From: a virus
DNA length: 31,319 nt
Strand: one strand, 5' to 3'
Virus record (IMG/VR): IMGVR_UViG_3300046003_003492
Location: 1-31,319 of that record
In this document: in pieces, positions 12,200 to 22,067 of the stretch
Position numbering within the stretch: the stretch's first letter is position 1
Layout: each line of letters opens with the position of its first letter
The notes under the pieces: generated by a model
The model's input: only the letters and a program-made list of their open reading frames with translations
Databases searched by the model: none
Told to the model about the DNA's origin: nothing
Made by a program: the position numbers and the translations under genes

Positions 12200-12487
12200 A
12201 TGACCCAAGAAGAAATGTGCGACATCGCCACGAAGACCGCGCTGACCTGCGTTCGGGCGATCATGGAGGGGAACGAAAAAGTGCCCGAGGACCATCGTCT
12301 CACCGCCGACATCTTCAGCGCGACCCGCGTCCTGGCGTTCATGATGGTGTCCGCGCGGATGGGCGGAATGCCGTCCGACGAAGAGCTTGCGGACATGCTT
12401 CCGTTGCTGGCCGTGCAGTGCCTCACCCTCCACAAGCAGTATGGGTCGACGTTTGCCACCGCTTCCGCTGCCGGGCAGGTGCATTGA
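12200..12487 (+). CDS. 95-residue hypothetical protein
   Basis: The ATG has GGAG nine bases upstream, after a 12-base gap. The product is all helical, with moderately hydrophobic segments (TRVLAFMMVSARMGG, MLPLLAVQCLTLH) that probably form a packed bundle rather than membrane spans, and two cysteines near the N-terminus. No motif is recognised. It ends by TGATG overlap with the next gene. Confidence 0.65.
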   Translation: MTQEEMCDIATKTALTCVRAIMEGNEKVPEDHRLTADIFSATRVLAFMMVSARMGGMPSDEELADMLPLLAVQCLTLHKQYGSTFATASAAGQVH

Positions 12488-12672
12488 TGTCCAAGTTCCA
12501 CGTCATCGATTTCGTGATAGCCGCGCGCCAGATGGTCGGCCCGTCGCTGTCGATCACGAAGGCGCTCGAGAAGCGCCGGGCCAGCAGCACCATCGACCGC
12601 AAGCCGCACCAGGGCACGCGCGAGCGGCAGCGCCGCCTGCGCCGCATGGCGAAGAAGGGCGGCCAGTCGTGA
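12487..12672 (+). CDS. 61-residue basic hypothetical protein
   Basis: Start by TGATG overlap. The first half is a mixed helix (VIDFVIAARQMVGPSLSI). The second half is very basic (RKPHQGTRERQRRLRRMAKKGG), which suggests binding to nucleic acid. The small size and basic tail would suit an RNA- or DNA-binding regulator, such as an antiterminator before the late genes, but nothing specific shows this. The stop overlaps the GTG start of the next gene. Confidence 0.55.
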   Translation: MSKFHVIDFVIAARQMVGPSLSITKALEKRRASSTIDRKPHQGTRERQRRLRRMAKKGGQS

Positions 12673-12935
12673 GCGAGTACGCGCCGTTCCGCCCCGGCTG
12701 CGTCGTGCGGCTCAAGGGCCAGACCGTGCGGATGACCGTGATCAGCGGCAGCGACGCCGATCCCGTCCGCCGCTGCGCGTGGTTCAAGGTCGACGGCAGC
12801 CTCGAGATCCAGGCGCTGGCCGTCGTCGCGCTCGAGCGCGATCCCAGCCAGGACGCAAAGGAAGCAGGGCCACCTCTCACGGCAACCGAGCTCCGGCTGC
12901 GGCAGGGCGAGGCCCTTGATTCCCTCGGACGGTGA
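12669..12935 (+). CDS. DUF2158/YodC-like small protein
   Basis: The GTG start overlaps the previous stop (GTGA); 88 residues. The first 50 residues follow the pattern of the DUF2158 (YodC) family: FRPGCVVRLKGQTVRMTV, then CAWFKVDGSLEIQALAVVAL. This small SH3-like beta fold has no known reaction. The end is helical (TATELRLRQGEALDSL). It is the last gene of the rightward early block, and the noncoding junction before the terminase genes follows. Confidence 0.6.
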   Translation: MSEYAPFRPGCVVRLKGQTVRMTVISGSDADPVRRCAWFKVDGSLEIQALAVVALERDPSQDAKEAGPPLTATELRLRQGEALDSLGR

Positions 12936-12940
12936 CCGGC

Positions 12941-12969
12941 TAGACGCAAGATAGTTGCTCGCGTATCTT
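12941..12969 (+). promoter_or_regulatory. Possible late promoter with overlapping inverted repeat
   Basis: TAGACG (12941-12946) and TATCTT (12964-12969), each 4 of 6 to consensus, stand 17 bases apart. CAAGATA (12947-12953) and its inverse TATCTTG (12964-12970) span the spacer and -10 box and could be an operator. Initiation would fall near 12976, seven bases before the structured leader. The boxes are weak, so an activator may be needed. Confidence 0.4.
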
Positions 12970-12975
12970 GTGCGC

Positions 12976-13070
12976 CGCAAGTCTGGGGTTCCGGGCTCGG
13001 TAGCTTGGCGGTCGCCGTGCCCGACCTGGGGCTCTCGGACTTTGCGGTCTGAGAGCCCTGGGAGCCCCGG
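12976..13070 (+). ncRNA. Three-way-junction leader RNA before the small terminase gene
   Basis: A closed RNA fold can be drawn by hand. P1 pairs 12983-12992 with 13061-13070 (10 of 10 pairs, two of them G-U). P2 pairs 12993-13000 with 13015-13022 (one mismatch). P3 pairs 13027-13041 with 13046-13060 (15 pairs, four G-U, loop UUGC). The arms meet with at most a few unpaired bases. The 3' strand of P1 holds GGAG (13061-13064), the ribosome-binding site for the TTG start at 13071. Folding would therefore hide that site. It may control translation, serve as a packaging signal, or both. Confidence 0.5.
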
Positions 13071-13592
13071 TTGAACAAGCGGACAAAGGAATTCCTCGCA
13101 CTGAAGCCGATGCACCAGCTGCTCGTCGCTGAGTACATGACGGACTTCAACGCGACACGCGCGTACACGGCGGCCGGTTTTCCCGGCAAGAACGCCGACG
13201 TGCAGGGGCCTCGCATGATCCAGCAGGCCGACGTCCAGGCTGCGGTGCAGGCCGAGACCAAGATCATGCTGGCCGACCTGAAGCTGACGCCGGGCAAGGT
13301 GCTGCGAGACCTCGAGGCCGCCCGCATTGCGGCGATGTCGAACGGCAAGTTCAGCGCGGCGGTCATGGCGATCGAGCGGATGGTCAGGTACCGCAACATC
13401 TTCCCGCACCAGTATCGCGCGAACAACGGCGACCTGCCGATTCCCGGCCTCGACGGCGATCCCGACAACCAGGCGCCAGTGGCGATCGACGACGTGTCGC
13501 GGCGCATCCTCTTCCTCCTGACCGGCCCGATGGCGCCGGCCGGGGAGAAGCCTGCAGCTCGAGACGATGAGCCGCCGGTCACGATCCAGTAA
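13071..13592 (+). CDS. terS: Terminase small subunit (Terminase_2 type)
   Basis: The TTG start follows GGAG by six bases; the next in-frame ATG, 14 codons on, would cut the first helix. The 173-residue protein matches Terminase_2 family small subunits: KPMHQLLVAEYM, FNATRAYTAAGFPG, QGPRMIQQADVQAAVQAE, a helix-turn-helix DNA-recognition unit followed by the oligomer-forming helices. It recognises the packaging site and feeds DNA to the large subunit. The end is Pro/Asp-rich and flexible. A structured leader probably limits its translation. It is separated from the large subunit by one virion-like gene. Confidence 0.85.
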   Translation: MNKRTKEFLALKPMHQLLVAEYMTDFNATRAYTAAGFPGKNADVQGPRMIQQADVQAAVQAETKIMLADLKLTPGKVLRDLEAARIAAMSNGKFSAAVMAIERMVRYRNIFPHQYRANNGDLPIPGLDGDPDNQAPVAIDDVSRRILFLLTGPMAPAGEKPAARDDEPPVTIQ

Positions 13593-13645
13593 AATGCCAA
13601 TCTTGGCGCACAATGGGCTGAAGCCCGCATAATTGGAGACTTTCG

Positions 13646-14488
13646 ATGACTCGCATCCTTTCCTCGATCGATGGCCGTAAGAGCGGCGGAACGCAGGACG
13701 TCAAGCGCGGCTCTGCCCTTCAGCCTGGCCCGCAGATGTCGGTCGGTGGCTTTCTCTCCGGCGACCACGGCTCGCAGATCCATCACCCGGCGCCGTCGCG
13801 CGTGACGGAGTTCGACGACTTCCTCGGCGCGGGCGTCCTGCCCGTGCGCTACACCTCGCTCGAGGGCACCGACTCGGCCACGTCGGCGGCGGTGATCACG
13901 GGCGTCGTGTCCGGCGCACTGCGCCTGACCACGGGTGACGCCGGCACCGGCATCGCGGCGGACGGCGAGATGATCGTCGAGACCCTGCAGTGGCGCGCGG
14001 CGAACGGCGAGCTGTGCGGCGAGTGGCGCGTGAAGATGTCGGCGGTCACGACCTGCTGGGCCTTCATCGGCTTCACCGATCAGATCTCGACCCTCGAGGC
14101 TGCGATCGAAAGCGCCGGCTCCGGCAACACCATCACGACGAACGCCTCCGACGCGGTCGGTTTCATGTTCGACACGCGCATGACCGACGACAACTGGTGG
14201 CTGGTGGGCGTTGCGGCCGACGTCGATGCGACCGCGCAGGACAGCGACATCGCTCCGACCGCGGCCCAGTACCAGACGCTGCGCGTCGAGGTGACGGCCG
14301 ATGGCATCGCGTCGTTCTTCATCAACGGTCTGCCGGTCGGCACCAGGATGACCGGCGCCGTCACCGCGGCGACGCAGCTGACGCCGACCATTGGCGTCTC
14401 CAAGACCAGCGTCGCGGCGTCGATGACGATGGACGTCGACTACCAGCACGTCTCGATGCTGCGCGGCGCCGACGGCACCGCGTTCTAA
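13646..14488 (+). CDS. Putative beta-sandwich virion protein between the terminase subunits
   Basis: The ATG has TTGGAG about eight bases upstream. The 280-residue protein is beta-rich throughout, with alternating strands such as CGEWRVKMSAVTTCWAFIGF, NWWLVGVAADVD and TLRVEVTADGIASFFINGLPVG. The last resembles the strand-turn of concanavalin/LamG-like domains (VEVTADGxxxFFINGxxVG). Such proteins decorate heads or bind sugars. The first 55 residues are polar and Gly-rich and may attach to the particle. Its place between terS and terL is unusual. No secretion signal is seen. The domain call is by eye. Confidence 0.6.
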   Translation: MTRILSSIDGRKSGGTQDVKRGSALQPGPQMSVGGFLSGDHGSQIHHPAPSRVTEFDDFLGAGVLPVRYTSLEGTDSATSAAVITGVVSGALRLTTGDAGTGIAADGEMIVETLQWRAANGELCGEWRVKMSAVTTCWAFIGFTDQISTLEAAIESAGSGNTITTNASDAVGFMFDTRMTDDNWWLVGVAADVDATAQDSDIAPTAAQYQTLRVEVTADGIASFFINGLPVGTRMTGAVTAATQLTPTIGVSKTSVAASMTMDVDYQHVSMLRGADGTAF

Positions 14489-14490
14489 GA

Positions 14491-16149
14491 ATGGACGGCT
14501 CGCCGGTAGCGCAGGCCAGCCTGCTCGAGGAGATCCGAGCTCGCATGTCTGCGCTGCCGGCGGATCGGCAACGCGAGGTCGCCGCCCTGGCTGGGGCGGT
14601 GACAGGCACGATGCGGATGGTCCCGAATGCCGGGCCGCAGACCGCAGCCTATCGATCGATGGCCGACGTGCTGCTCTATGGCGGGCAGGCTGGTGGCGGC
14701 AAGACGTTCCTCGAGCTCGGCTGGCCGATCAACGAATCCGACAGCGGCATCATCTTCCGCCGCGAGCTCACGCAGACAGACGGCCTCGAGAAAGAAGGCA
14801 AGAAGCTGATCGGCCAGGCGGCCGGATACAACGGCACCAAGCACGAGTGGACGTGGCCGAACGGCAAGTCACTGAAGCTGGCCGGCATGAAGGGGCCCGA
14901 GGACTGGCAACCCTACGCCGGCCGCGAGCGCGATTACATGGGCTTCGACGAGGGCGGTGAGTTCCTCGAGGTCCAGGTCGCCAGCATCATCGCGTGGCTG
15001 CGCGCCGCACCGGGCAAGCGGTGCCGCGTCATCATCGGCAGCAACCCGCCTCGATCGTCGGACGGCCAGTGGCTGCTGAAGTGGTTCGCGCCCTGGCTCG
15101 ATGAGCGGTTCGACAATCCAGCCGAGGCCGGCGAATTGCGCTGGGCCTGCTACGTCACGACCAACGGCATCGGCGCGATGCAGTGGGTCGCAGGGCCGGG
15201 CGAGTATCAGTTCGACGGCGAGAATTACACGGCCAAGTCCTACACGTTCATCCCGGCGAGCCTGGCGGACAATCCCTACCGGAATACCCCGGAGTACAAG
15301 GCCCAGCTGCAGTCGCTGCCCGAGCCGCTGCGCTCGCAACTGCTCTACGGCGATTTCGGTGCCGGCTTGCAGGATGGCGCCGACCAGATGATCCCGACCG
15401 CCTGGATCAGGGCGGCGCAGAAGCGGTGGACGCCGGAGCCGCCGAAGGGCGTGCCGATGTGCGCGATGGGCGTCGATGCCTCCGGTGGTGGCGAGGATCC
15501 GATGGTGATCGCTGCCCGCTATGACGGCTGGTATGCCGAGCTGATCGAAACGCCTGGCGCGACGATTCCCGGCGACAAGCTGGGGACGCATCAGGCCGGC
15601 GTGGTCGTGATGCACCGCCGCGACTCCGCGCTGGTGATAGTCGACATGGGCGGCGGCTACGGCGGCGGAATCTACGAGCATCTCAAAGGCAACGGCATCG
15701 AGACGACGGCCTACAAGGGGGCCGGTGAGGGCGCCGGCCGGTCGGCGGATCGGCAACTCAAGTTCCACAACATGCGGACGCAGACCTACTGGCGTTTCCG
15801 CGAGGCGCTCGATCCCGACCAGCCGGGTGGCTCGCCGATCGCCCTGCCGCCTGATCCCGGCATCGTGGCCGAGCTCGCCGCCGTGACCTTCGACATCGTG
15901 AGCCTGGCGGGCGGGATGGGCGTGAAGGCGCGCAAGAAGGAAACCGTGATCGAGAAGCTCGGTCACTCGCCCAACAAGGCCGACGCGATCGTCATGGCCT
16001 GGACGGCTGGCGTGAAGATGTCGAACATCCGGGGCGGGTGGAGGGCTAATGCCGCGCCCGTGAATGTGGTAATGGGGCATGCGGCGACGCGGCGCACATC
16101 ATCTGGTGGTGGTGTGGTCTACCGCGGCGGGGGTGGCGAACATGGTTGA
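14491..16149 (+). CDS. terL: Terminase large subunit
   Basis: The ATG at 14491 comes two bases after the previous stop. The open frame extends upstream, but that part is an Arg-rich shadow of the gene before. The 552-residue protein has the packaging ATPase: Walker A GGQAGGGKT (64-72) and Walker B YMGFDEG with Asp153-Glu154. The RNase H-like nuclease follows, with Asp329 in MGVDASGGG, Asp385 in IVDMGGG and Asp498 in NKADAIV. It drives DNA into the prohead and cuts it. The C-terminal 35 residues are Gly/Arg-rich. The last bases overlap the next start. Confidence 0.93.
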   Translation: MDGSPVAQASLLEEIRARMSALPADRQREVAALAGAVTGTMRMVPNAGPQTAAYRSMADVLLYGGQAGGGKTFLELGWPINESDSGIIFRRELTQTDGLEKEGKKLIGQAAGYNGTKHEWTWPNGKSLKLAGMKGPEDWQPYAGRERDYMGFDEGGEFLEVQVASIIAWLRAAPGKRCRVIIGSNPPRSSDGQWLLKWFAPWLDERFDNPAEAGELRWACYVTTNGIGAMQWVAGPGEYQFDGENYTAKSYTFIPASLADNPYRNTPEYKAQLQSLPEPLRSQLLYGDFGAGLQDGADQMIPTAWIRAAQKRWTPEPPKGVPMCAMGVDASGGGEDPMVIAARYDGWYAELIETPGATIPGDKLGTHQAGVVVMHRRDSALVIVDMGGGYGGGIYEHLKGNGIETTAYKGAGEGAGRSADRQLKFHNMRTQTYWRFREALDPDQPGGSPIALPPDPGIVAELAAVTFDIVSLAGGMGVKARKKETVIEKLGHSPNKADAIVMAWTAGVKMSNIRGGWRANAAPVNVVMGHAATRRTSSGGGVVYRGGGGEHG

Positions 16150-18977: not shown

Positions 18978-20045
18978 ATGTCTGATGGAAATCGCGCCGG
19001 CGAGGCCGGTGGTGCAGGTGGTGGTGCGGCCGGTGCAGGTGCCGCTGCCGGTGGTGCAGGGGCGGCAGGAGCTGGTGCGGCAGCAGGCGCTGCGGACGGT
19101 GGAGTAGCGGGCGGCGCGGGTGGCGCTGCTGCGGGCGAGGTTGCAGGGGCGGGTGCCGCTGGTGCCGGGACTTCCGGTGCCGGCGGTGCTGCCGCAGGTG
19201 CGGCCGGGGCTGATGGCAAAGGCTCGGCGAGTGGTGACGGCAAGGGCGTAGCCGGCGACTGGCCGACCGACTGGCGCGAGAAGATGGCCGGTGGTGACGC
19301 CAAGCGCCTGGCAGAGCTGCAGCGGTACACCTCGCCCCAGGCCGTCGACGATGCGCGCCGCGCCGCTGCCGAGCGGATCTCCAAGGGAGACCTGAAGCAG
19401 CCGAAGCCCGAGGGTGCCGAGGCCACGCCGGAGAAGCTGGCCGAGTGGCGCAAGGCGCAGGGCATTCCCGAGGCGCCGGACAAGTACGAGATGCCGAAGG
19501 GCCTCGTGGTCGGTGATGCCGACAAGCCGATCGTCGATGGCTTCTTGAAGACGATGCACGAGCAGGACGCGACGCCGGGCGAGGTCCAGCGTGCGCTGGG
19601 CTGGTGGCAGGCGCACCAGGAGGCGCAGCGCGAGGCGATGCTCGAGGCCGACTCGACCTACCGCGACCAGAACCTTGAAATCCTGCAGCGGGAGATGGGC
19701 CCGGAAATCAGGCGCAACCTGAAGATGGCCGAGGAGTTCCTGAAGGACACGCCGGCCGGCGTCTACGATGCGATCGGCAAGGCCCGCGGTCCCGATGGCC
19801 GCCTGCTGTTCGCCAATGCGCAGGTGCTGTCGTGGTTCACGAACATGGCGCTGGCGAAGAACCCGCAGGCGGCGGTGATGGGCATGACCGGCCCGGCGGC
19901 GAACGCTGCGATGGAGACCGAGATCAGCGGCCTCGAGAAGCAGATGGGCGATTTCAACAGCGACTATCACAAGGGCCCGAACCGCGACAAGCTGCAGGCC
20001 CGCTATCGCGAGCTGATCACGGCGCGCGACAAGCTGAAGGGGTAG
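18978..20045 (+). CDS. Capsid assembly scaffold protein with long Ala/Gly-rich start
   Basis: The ATG follows TAGGAG by about six bases. The 355-residue protein begins with about 90 residues of almost pure Ala and Gly, then DWPTDWREKMAGGDAKRL (93-110), a motif common in podovirus scaffolds, then EKLAEWRKAQGIPEAPDKYEMPKG, and a long helical part to the end. Scaffold proteins form the core around which the capsid shell grows, and then leave or are cut. The helical C-terminus usually touches the coat protein. The Ala/Gly start is not typical and comes from GC-rich triplet expansion. A strong terminator follows. Confidence 0.75.
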   Translation: MSDGNRAGEAGGAGGGAAGAGAAAGGAGAAGAGAAAGAADGGVAGGAGGAAAGEVAGAGAAGAGTSGAGGAAAGAAGADGKGSASGDGKGVAGDWPTDWREKMAGGDAKRLAELQRYTSPQAVDDARRAAAERISKGDLKQPKPEGAEATPEKLAEWRKAQGIPEAPDKYEMPKGLVVGDADKPIVDGFLKTMHEQDATPGEVQRALGWWQAHQEAQREAMLEADSTYRDQNLEILQREMGPEIRRNLKMAEEFLKDTPAGVYDAIGKARGPDGRLLFANAQVLSWFTNMALAKNPQAAVMGMTGPAANAAMETEISGLEKQMGDFNSDYHKGPNRDKLQARYRELITARDKLKG

Positions 20046-20116
20046 GCTGGACATCCGGCGCCGGCTGGCGTTAGGATCGCGCTGCCCGTCTTGGGCGTTT
20101 CCTCCCTTTGTGACTT

Positions 20117-20150
20117 GCGGCCATCTCGAAAGGGGTGGCCGCTTTCTTTT
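20117..20150 (+). terminator. Rho-independent terminator after the scaffold gene
   Basis: An 11-pair stem (20117-20127 with 20132-20142, two G-U pairs) closed by a GAAA loop is followed by TTTCTTTT (20143-20150). This is the clearest terminator in the window. It separates the packaging/scaffold transcript from the capsid gene. Read-through may set the ratio of scaffold to capsid. Confidence 0.85.
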
Positions 20151-20166
20151 GGGCCGGCGGGCGGAA

Positions 20167-21511: not shown

Positions 21512-21551
21512 TCTTGCGACGCCGCTGGCAGCCGCCGGCGGGGTACAGAGG

Positions 21552-21582
21552 CGCCGCCGCTGTGTACTTGGCGGCGGCGTTT
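21552..21582 (+). terminator. GC-rich hairpin, possible weak terminator
   Basis: CGCCGCCGC (21552-21560) pairs perfectly with GCGGCGGCG (21571-21579) around a ten-base loop and is followed only by TTTC. It stands between the small head protein and the next gene. The short T run suggests partial termination, lowering expression of tail genes relative to capsid. GTACA/TGTAC (21543-21547, 21563-21567) could form a competing pair. Confidence 0.45.
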
Positions 21583-21602
21583 CACTATTCGCAGGAGAGC
21601 TC

Positions 21603-22067
21603 ATGTCGACGTTCGTTCCGACCAAGGTCAATGTCATCCCCCACCTGTTGCCCAACCAGATGAAGCAGGCGGACGGGGCGCGGAACACCTGGCGCGTTCA
21701 ACTCGAAAGCGAGATGACCGCCGAACACTTCCTGAAAGCCGAAGCCTACGCCCATGTCGCCAAGATGCTGGGCCGCGGCGATCGTATCGAGGTGCTGGCC
21801 GCCGACAGCTCCTGGTATGCCGAATTCATCGTCCGCTCGGTCGAGGGCCTCAACGTCCAGATCGGCCCGCTGATGCTGCAGACCTGGGGCAGCAAGGAGC
21901 TCCTCGAGTACGAGGACTATGCCGTCGACTTCAACGAGCGGGTCGGTGCGCGGGTGATCCGCAAGTCGGACAATCGCGTGATGGTCGAGGGCCTGCAGAG
22001 CCTGCAGTCGGCCGACAACTGGCTGCGCACGCGCTGCGGGATCGATCTGGAAAGCGCCGCCGCCTAG
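21603..22067 (+). CDS. 154-residue structural-region protein, unknown
   Basis: The ATG has AGGAG about five bases upstream. The product has a helix with AEHFLKAEAYAHVAKMLGRGD (in part), then a beta domain (RIEVLAADSSWYAEFIVRSVEG) and a Gln/Leu-rich end. It lies between the small head protein and the tail-tube genes, a position taken in related phages by proteins of unknown role. A head-completion or adaptor function is plausible. There is no sign of an enzyme or membrane segment. Confidence 0.65.
   Translation: MSTFVPTKVNVIPHLLPNQMKQADGARNTWRVQLESEMTAEHFLKAEAYAHVAKMLGRGDRIEVLAADSSWYAEFIVRSVEGLNVQIGPLMLQTWGSKELLEYEDYAVDFNERVGARVIRKSDNRVMVEGLQSLQSADNWLRTRCGIDLESAAA

Follow-up and report, generated by a model that had tools for sequence, protein, structure and literature searches.

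A three-way-junction fold that is real, unusually tight, and set at a meaningful place directly precedes the small terminase gene (terS) of one phage genome. The genome, an IMG/VR virus record of 31,319 bases, has a GC content of 66%; this whole stretch of DNA is here called the window. On the evidence of the modeled RNA, the junction is probably a translational on/off leader of terS. In its fuller form, which we put forward tentatively, it would be the structured 5' leader of the packaging and late mRNA and would silence terS in cis until opened, most economically by cleavage of the RNase III type.

The terS start and the predicted junction

The window has BPP-1-like structural genes (a PF12236 head-tail connector and a PF19821 capsid), and its TerL is 38.6% identical to that of Bordetella phage BPP-1. 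Three genes (12200 to 12487, 12487 to 12672, and 12669 to 12935) succeed one another almost without gaps. The last of them, on the + strand, encodes 88 amino acids from a GTG start to a stop at 12933 to 12935 (codon score, 0.206; GC3, 0.88) and is followed by a 135-base gap that scores as noncoding in all three frames. The gap separates the packaging genes from those upstream of them, and the three-way junction fills it. Beyond it, on the + strand, lie terS (13071 to 13592; TTG start; Terminase_2, PF03592, E value of 1.5e-10; PHROG terminase small subunit), an unnamed gene in the terS-terL interval (13646 to 14488), and terL (14491 to 16149; ATG at 14491; PHROG terminase large subunit, E value of 1.2e-37). 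The unnamed gene gave no match in Pfam or PHROG; it has 33 relatives in viral contigs and is about 50 to 60% identical in many phages with different terS genes. The TTG at 13071 is supported as the start of terS by the noncoding gap before it, by the coding-like score of the 13 codons that it opens (13071 to 13109), and by a GGAG about 6 bases 5' of it, which is the customary Shine-Dalgarno sequence and spacing in this phage.

The predicted element extends from 12978 to 13073 on the + strand, with a core from 12983 to 13070. P1 pairs 12983 to 12991 with 13062 to 13070. P2 (12992 to 13023) carries the loop UGGC and is marred by one U·U and one A·C mismatch, P3 (13026 to 13061) carries the loop UUGC on 16 uninterrupted pairs, and A13024 and C13025 are the only unpaired bases at the junction. 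An earlier, sequence-only reading of this DNA had described nearly complete pairing of three arms between 12983 and 13070, which the predicted fold confirms; the 10 pairs that it gave to P1 are 9, as C12992-G13023 falls in P2. The GGAG Shine-Dalgarno (13061 to 13064) lies across the foot of P3 and P1, the 3' strand of P1 holding most of it. Furthermore, CAA at 12978 to 12980 pairs with UUG at 13071 to 13073 and extends P1 beyond a two-base GU bulge, so that the start codon of terS is paired as well. The ribosome-binding site (RBS) of terS is thus hidden in the predicted fold, as that reading had maintained.

To what extent the start is buried was expressed as the energy for forcing positions -14 to +3 open in terS and in 18 other genes of the window. 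The terS start is an outlier, at 18.7 kcal/mol versus 3.7 to 12.0 kcal/mol for the others. An RBS-sequestering leader is recognized by a Shine-Dalgarno sequence, a start codon, or both lying in a stable helix, and here both do. A helix that holds both would also suit an RNA thermometer, which had been suggested. However, opening the narrower region from 13061 to 13073 costs 12.2 kcal/mol at 37°C and 11.5 kcal/mol at 42°C, and even at 50°C it takes 10.2 kcal/mol, which makes a thermometer scarcely credible. Capsid-gene starts of GC-rich relatives are costly too (median, 11.8 kcal/mol; half at least 12 kcal/mol; some reaching 21 kcal/mol). Closed starts are therefore not exceptional in this phage group, a point that counts against the leader reading.

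Ribosomes themselves might melt the fold by translating a short frame and then reinitiating on terS. An open frame of 39 codons (12955 to 13074) does span the whole junction, starting at TTG 12955 or GTG 12970, and its stop (TGA, 13072 to 13074) overlaps the terS start as TTGA. Yet it scores as noncoding (-0.29 per codon, versus +0.2 to +0.48 for genes), no Shine-Dalgarno sequence precedes it, and stretches of 39 codons free of stops are nothing unusual at 66% GC. We consider such coupling quite improbable.

The stretch from 12976 to 13090 folds at -65.8 kcal/mol (z, -4.07), and none of 200 shuffled sequences did as well. The entire 135-nt gap has a z of -5.8, the lowest among about 60 gaps folded in the window phage and 26 relatives. 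When the whole + strand was scanned in 90-nt segments, z fell below -4 in 9 of 1,041 of them; three of the nine are the junction element, and others are hairpins that lie within coding sequence or close to it. Because comparably strong hairpins occur elsewhere in the window, strength of folding is by itself no rarity in a genome of 66% GC, and this, too, speaks against the leader reading. Two hairpins elsewhere in the window were recorded, a strong one in the first codons of terL (14500 to 14563; outer stem of 17 pairs) and an intergenic one of 15 pairs, GAGGCGCCGCCGCC...GGCGGCGGCGTTTC (21548 to 21590), 5' of the gene at 21603.

The fold also differs between the strands. As RNA, the + strand reaches -62.8 kcal/mol versus -42.5 kcal/mol for the - strand, about 20 kcal/mol apart, and the + strand fold has 9 G-U pairs versus one A·C mismatch. 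An asymmetry this large was seen in 0.7% of 694 segments of the window; it is moderate evidence, since the structure was chosen on the + strand, which perhaps explains part of the asymmetry. Folded as single-stranded DNA, the - strand has a z of -1.65 and the + strand a z of -2.99.

The boundary before terS in related phages

Scans in which TerS, TerL, the portal, or the unnamed gene served as the query yielded about 250 loci of relatives. TerS, TerL, and the DNA from 12900 to 13600 had no close relative in searches of phages and IMG/VR. The scan by TerL alignment gave 71% as the best identity (loci L183 and L184), and there terS differs and the fold is absent. A single-sequence covariance model matched only the window itself when run on 161 loci, the window, and 12 whole viral records. 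The junction element is missing altogether from relatives whose TerS is of the same family, and in BLAST searches of phage and plasmid sequences it had chance-level matches only. Among 93 terS-bearing loci whose upstream regions were folded, L181 alone approached the z value of the element, and a U-run follows its hairpin. The leader reading has to contend with this confinement to one genome, with about 160 relatives giving no match, and with the expression of terS in relatives that have no such fold. Because the element is known from one genome, its function as a leader is one that we infer.

Other kinds of terS are found in L187/L264, L202, and L254, although their TerL or portal is related; judging by these sequences, TerS is swapped freely among related phages. 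Several loci have features of their own. Intrinsic terminators (a GC hairpin followed by T7 to T8) lie directly 5' of terS in L185 (1380 to 1411) and L189 (970 to 995), two relatives with TerL about 65% identical. In L202, an otherwise GC-rich phage, a noncoding gap holds a long AT-rich inverted repeat (1469 to 1699; z, -4.9), and in L087 (about 1800 to 1880) and L093 (about 570 to 650) a conserved stretch, GTTGCGCGCAA..TGCAACATGC.ATTCGGCTAAT, lies 5' of terS. In addition, Limnohabitans phage DC33 (L004; PQ492659.1) is recorded under Inoviridae yet has tailed-phage TerL and portal genes, and its placement looks wrong.

These comparisons bear on an alternative in which the fold is a boundary structure that serves no translational purpose, whether a degenerate terminator, an insulator, an mRNA-stabilizing 5' hairpin, or a recent tandem duplication of one hairpin (P2/P3) free of selection for hiding the start. 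The existence of relatives that do without the element, the other hairpins that relatives have at the same boundary (including the L185 and L189 terminators), and the further strong hairpins of the window all favor it, as does the alignment of the complete P2 and P3 units as possible diverged copies (P = 0.0145). Against it, neither P3 nor P1 is followed by a U-tract, and no terminator was found there in the scan, while the fold extends exactly over the Shine-Dalgarno sequence and the start codon, with an opening cost that is an outlier in the genome. We regard this alternative as unlikely, though it deserves serious consideration.

Upstream of the junction, the sequence-only reading had placed a promoter, TAGACG-17-TATCTT (12941 to 12969, + strand), with the RNA starting near 12976. 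The site is where it was said to be; as a promoter it is a weak candidate, matching at 8 of 12 positions and falling below the threshold of our scan. Its TATCTT is overlapped by a perfect dyad, CAAGATA-N10-TATCTTG (12947 to 12970), the sole match in the window, with 0 expected in shuffled sequence. The dyad is possibly an operator, or else a hairpin in read-through RNA. Viral contigs also contain it, with many among the matches listed, and these matches are probably mostly due to chance because only 14 bases are fixed.

In L183, L187/L264, L241, L243, L202, L254, and L236, the ATG of terS follows a TATCnT by exactly 9 nt, and in L184 the spacing is one base longer. Complementary arms, for the most part rich in GC, flank the TATC of these relatives, and the sequence of the arms varies among phages. 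In the window, TATCTT (12964 to 12969) is followed after nine bases by AAG at 12979, so that the junction starts at the position of the relatives' start codon. The simplest reading would be that a -10-like or operator site is conserved and that the junction, together with eight extra codons, was inserted ahead of terS in the window phage. Alignment of 12926 to 12982 with the terS-start site of the relatives gave P values of 0.055 to 0.086 (0.39 for L184), which make homology of the site suggestive and not established, and no -35 is common to the terS-start sites of the relatives. We infer the insertion step, since the surrounding similarity is not significant and no -35 is shared. The proposal that the element is the exact 5' leader of the transcript thus gains from the recurrence of TATCnT-N9-ATG and loses from these P values and the lack of a conserved -35.

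Five relatives share a highly conserved block, CAGTAAGGACC...CCGCGCGGGGTTATCTTGCGCGGGCAATGG, 5' of terS (L183, 2721 to 2779; L184, 1670 to 1725; L241, 2827 to 2884; L243, 1855 to 1912; L264, 2291 to 2340), and it is kept in L264 despite the other kind of terS there. The block is a candidate late promoter/operator or cos site.

Class assignment and comparison with known RNAs

At the Rfam gathering threshold the element had no match, and its best score in E-value mode was 16.7 bits, far under the cutoff. The gathering score was reached by none of the known families, including pRNA, riboswitches, and hammerhead. Literature searches turned up no description of an RNA 5' of terS. The Rfam result bears out the earlier statement that no described RNA class fits. 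Several other identities were discarded. The element is not a standard intrinsic terminator, since no U-tract lies 3' of P3 or P1, and a regional terminator scan found none there; it is not a hammerhead-type ribozyme, since the junction has no unpaired core beyond A13024-C13025. An attC-like match to GTTRRRY at 13070 is presumably due to chance. We therefore describe the element as an RBS-hiding leader of unusual shape and place and claim no named RNA class for it. Elsewhere in the window, Rfam matched suhB/mmgR at 20077 to 20157 (52.5 bits; gathering threshold, 41), in the interval that separates the capsid gene from the gene ending at 20045. Because its hairpin is followed by TTTCTTTT, this match may represent an intrinsic terminator instead of a genuine alphaproteobacterial sRNA.

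A packaging role had also been raised; it could be that of a cos/pac DNA structure or of a packaging RNA like the phi29 pRNA. The position directly 5' of terS and the three-way-junction shape would fit such a role, and a conserved GC-rich dyad with TTATC occupies the same place in relatives with related TerL and unrelated terS. That dyad, however, differs from the three-way junction. A cos/pac palindrome should be alike on both strands, whereas this fold is strand asymmetric and favors + strand RNA, and the poor folding of the - strand as DNA tells against a packaging DNA structure. The window phage has an ordinary TerS/TerL pair, and no Rfam model matched. A packaging element is thus very improbable. 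The phi29-type pRNA is similarly a three-way-junction RNA beside packaging functions, but the terS element occurs in a different kind of phage, one with a TerS/TerL pair, and overlaps the terS start.

Among phages, the lambda cIII and N leaders and the RNase III sites of T7 and T3 are duplexes at the start of operons that tune translation or processing, although the T7 sites do not in general bury the Shine-Dalgarno sequence. They belong to other genes and have other folds than the terS leader. The put antiterminator RNA of HK022 consists of two adjoining stem-loops right where an operon begins, and in this it resembles the terS element; in the latter, unlike in put, P1 closes off the two arms and hides the RBS.

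The closest precedents for the leader reading concern RBSs opened by processing. In the leader of Escherichia coli adhE, RNase III opens an occluded RBS, according to a passage in PMC5371410 that cites Aristarkhov 1996, and the same passage cites lambda cIII for RNase III opening likewise. The lambda N leader and the T7/T3 sites are also named in PMC5371410. The adhE leader shares with the terS element the occlusion of the RBS by leader structure and a double-strand RNase as the opener, which for terS is our proposal only; it differs in that adhE is a bacterial metabolic gene, while the terS element is a phage three-way junction. Type I toxin mRNAs are closed when transcribed and are opened by processing (PMC11228461). 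Their own fold keeps them translationally inactive until they are processed or refolded, as suggested here for terS, but they belong to toxin-antitoxin loci with an antisense RNA, and none was seen at the terS element.

Opening of the leader and its meaning

The apices of P2 and P3 share a motif, RCU-UKGC-GGUC, which is a new observation that the sequence-only reading did not include. The two copies on the + strand, GCUUGGCGGUC at 13003 to 13013 and ACUUUGCGGUC at 13039 to 13049, are identical at 9 of 11 positions, a likeness reached by 0.4% of random pairs of apices with four-base loops from the same genome. They are the only two matches in the whole window; no third copy was found within one mismatch. 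Either a duplication left this likeness behind, or the motif is a putative binding site present in two copies. In the second case, TerS or another late protein might bind both apices and close or open the leader, giving a protein-operated switch or autoregulation. The repeated motif and its restriction to these two places favor such a switch, but a duplication could account for the apical identity, and no homologue shows conservation of the loops. We judge it improbable. Slightly more doubtful still is the idea of a packaging-timing RNA, an undescribed class of leader that would offer two copies of one apical stem-loop to TerS or another late protein and so make the start of terminase synthesis depend on that protein or on processing.

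The leader reading as a whole can be laid out in a few steps. The RNA would start near 12976, just 5' of the junction. In the uncut leader, P1 and the base of P3 would hold the Shine-Dalgarno sequence and the UUG and so keep 30S subunits from binding, and terS would be silent or translated at a very low level until the leader is opened. The 16-bp P3 adjoins the 9-bp P1 in a predicted long, near-perfect duplex, and the most economical opener would be cleavage of this P3/P1 duplex by a host double-strand RNase, e.g., RNase III. When 5' ends were simulated at 13047 to 13056, within P3, the cost of opening 13061 to 13073 dropped from 12.2 to 5.4 to 6.1 kcal/mol; an mRNA cut at about these positions would have an ordinarily accessible start. 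A protein bound to the motif that the P2 and P3 apices share could set the timing.

Outside a few models, little is understood of how phages schedule terminase synthesis relative to capsid assembly. If the reading is true, a leader that keeps terS silent before its opening would serve as a simple and testable timing device. If the fold is neutral, it is a caution against inferring function from a strong fold at 66% GC. If the leader reading is true, the boundary before terS, with its fast turnover of sequence between related phages, would be a birthplace of new RNA control elements.
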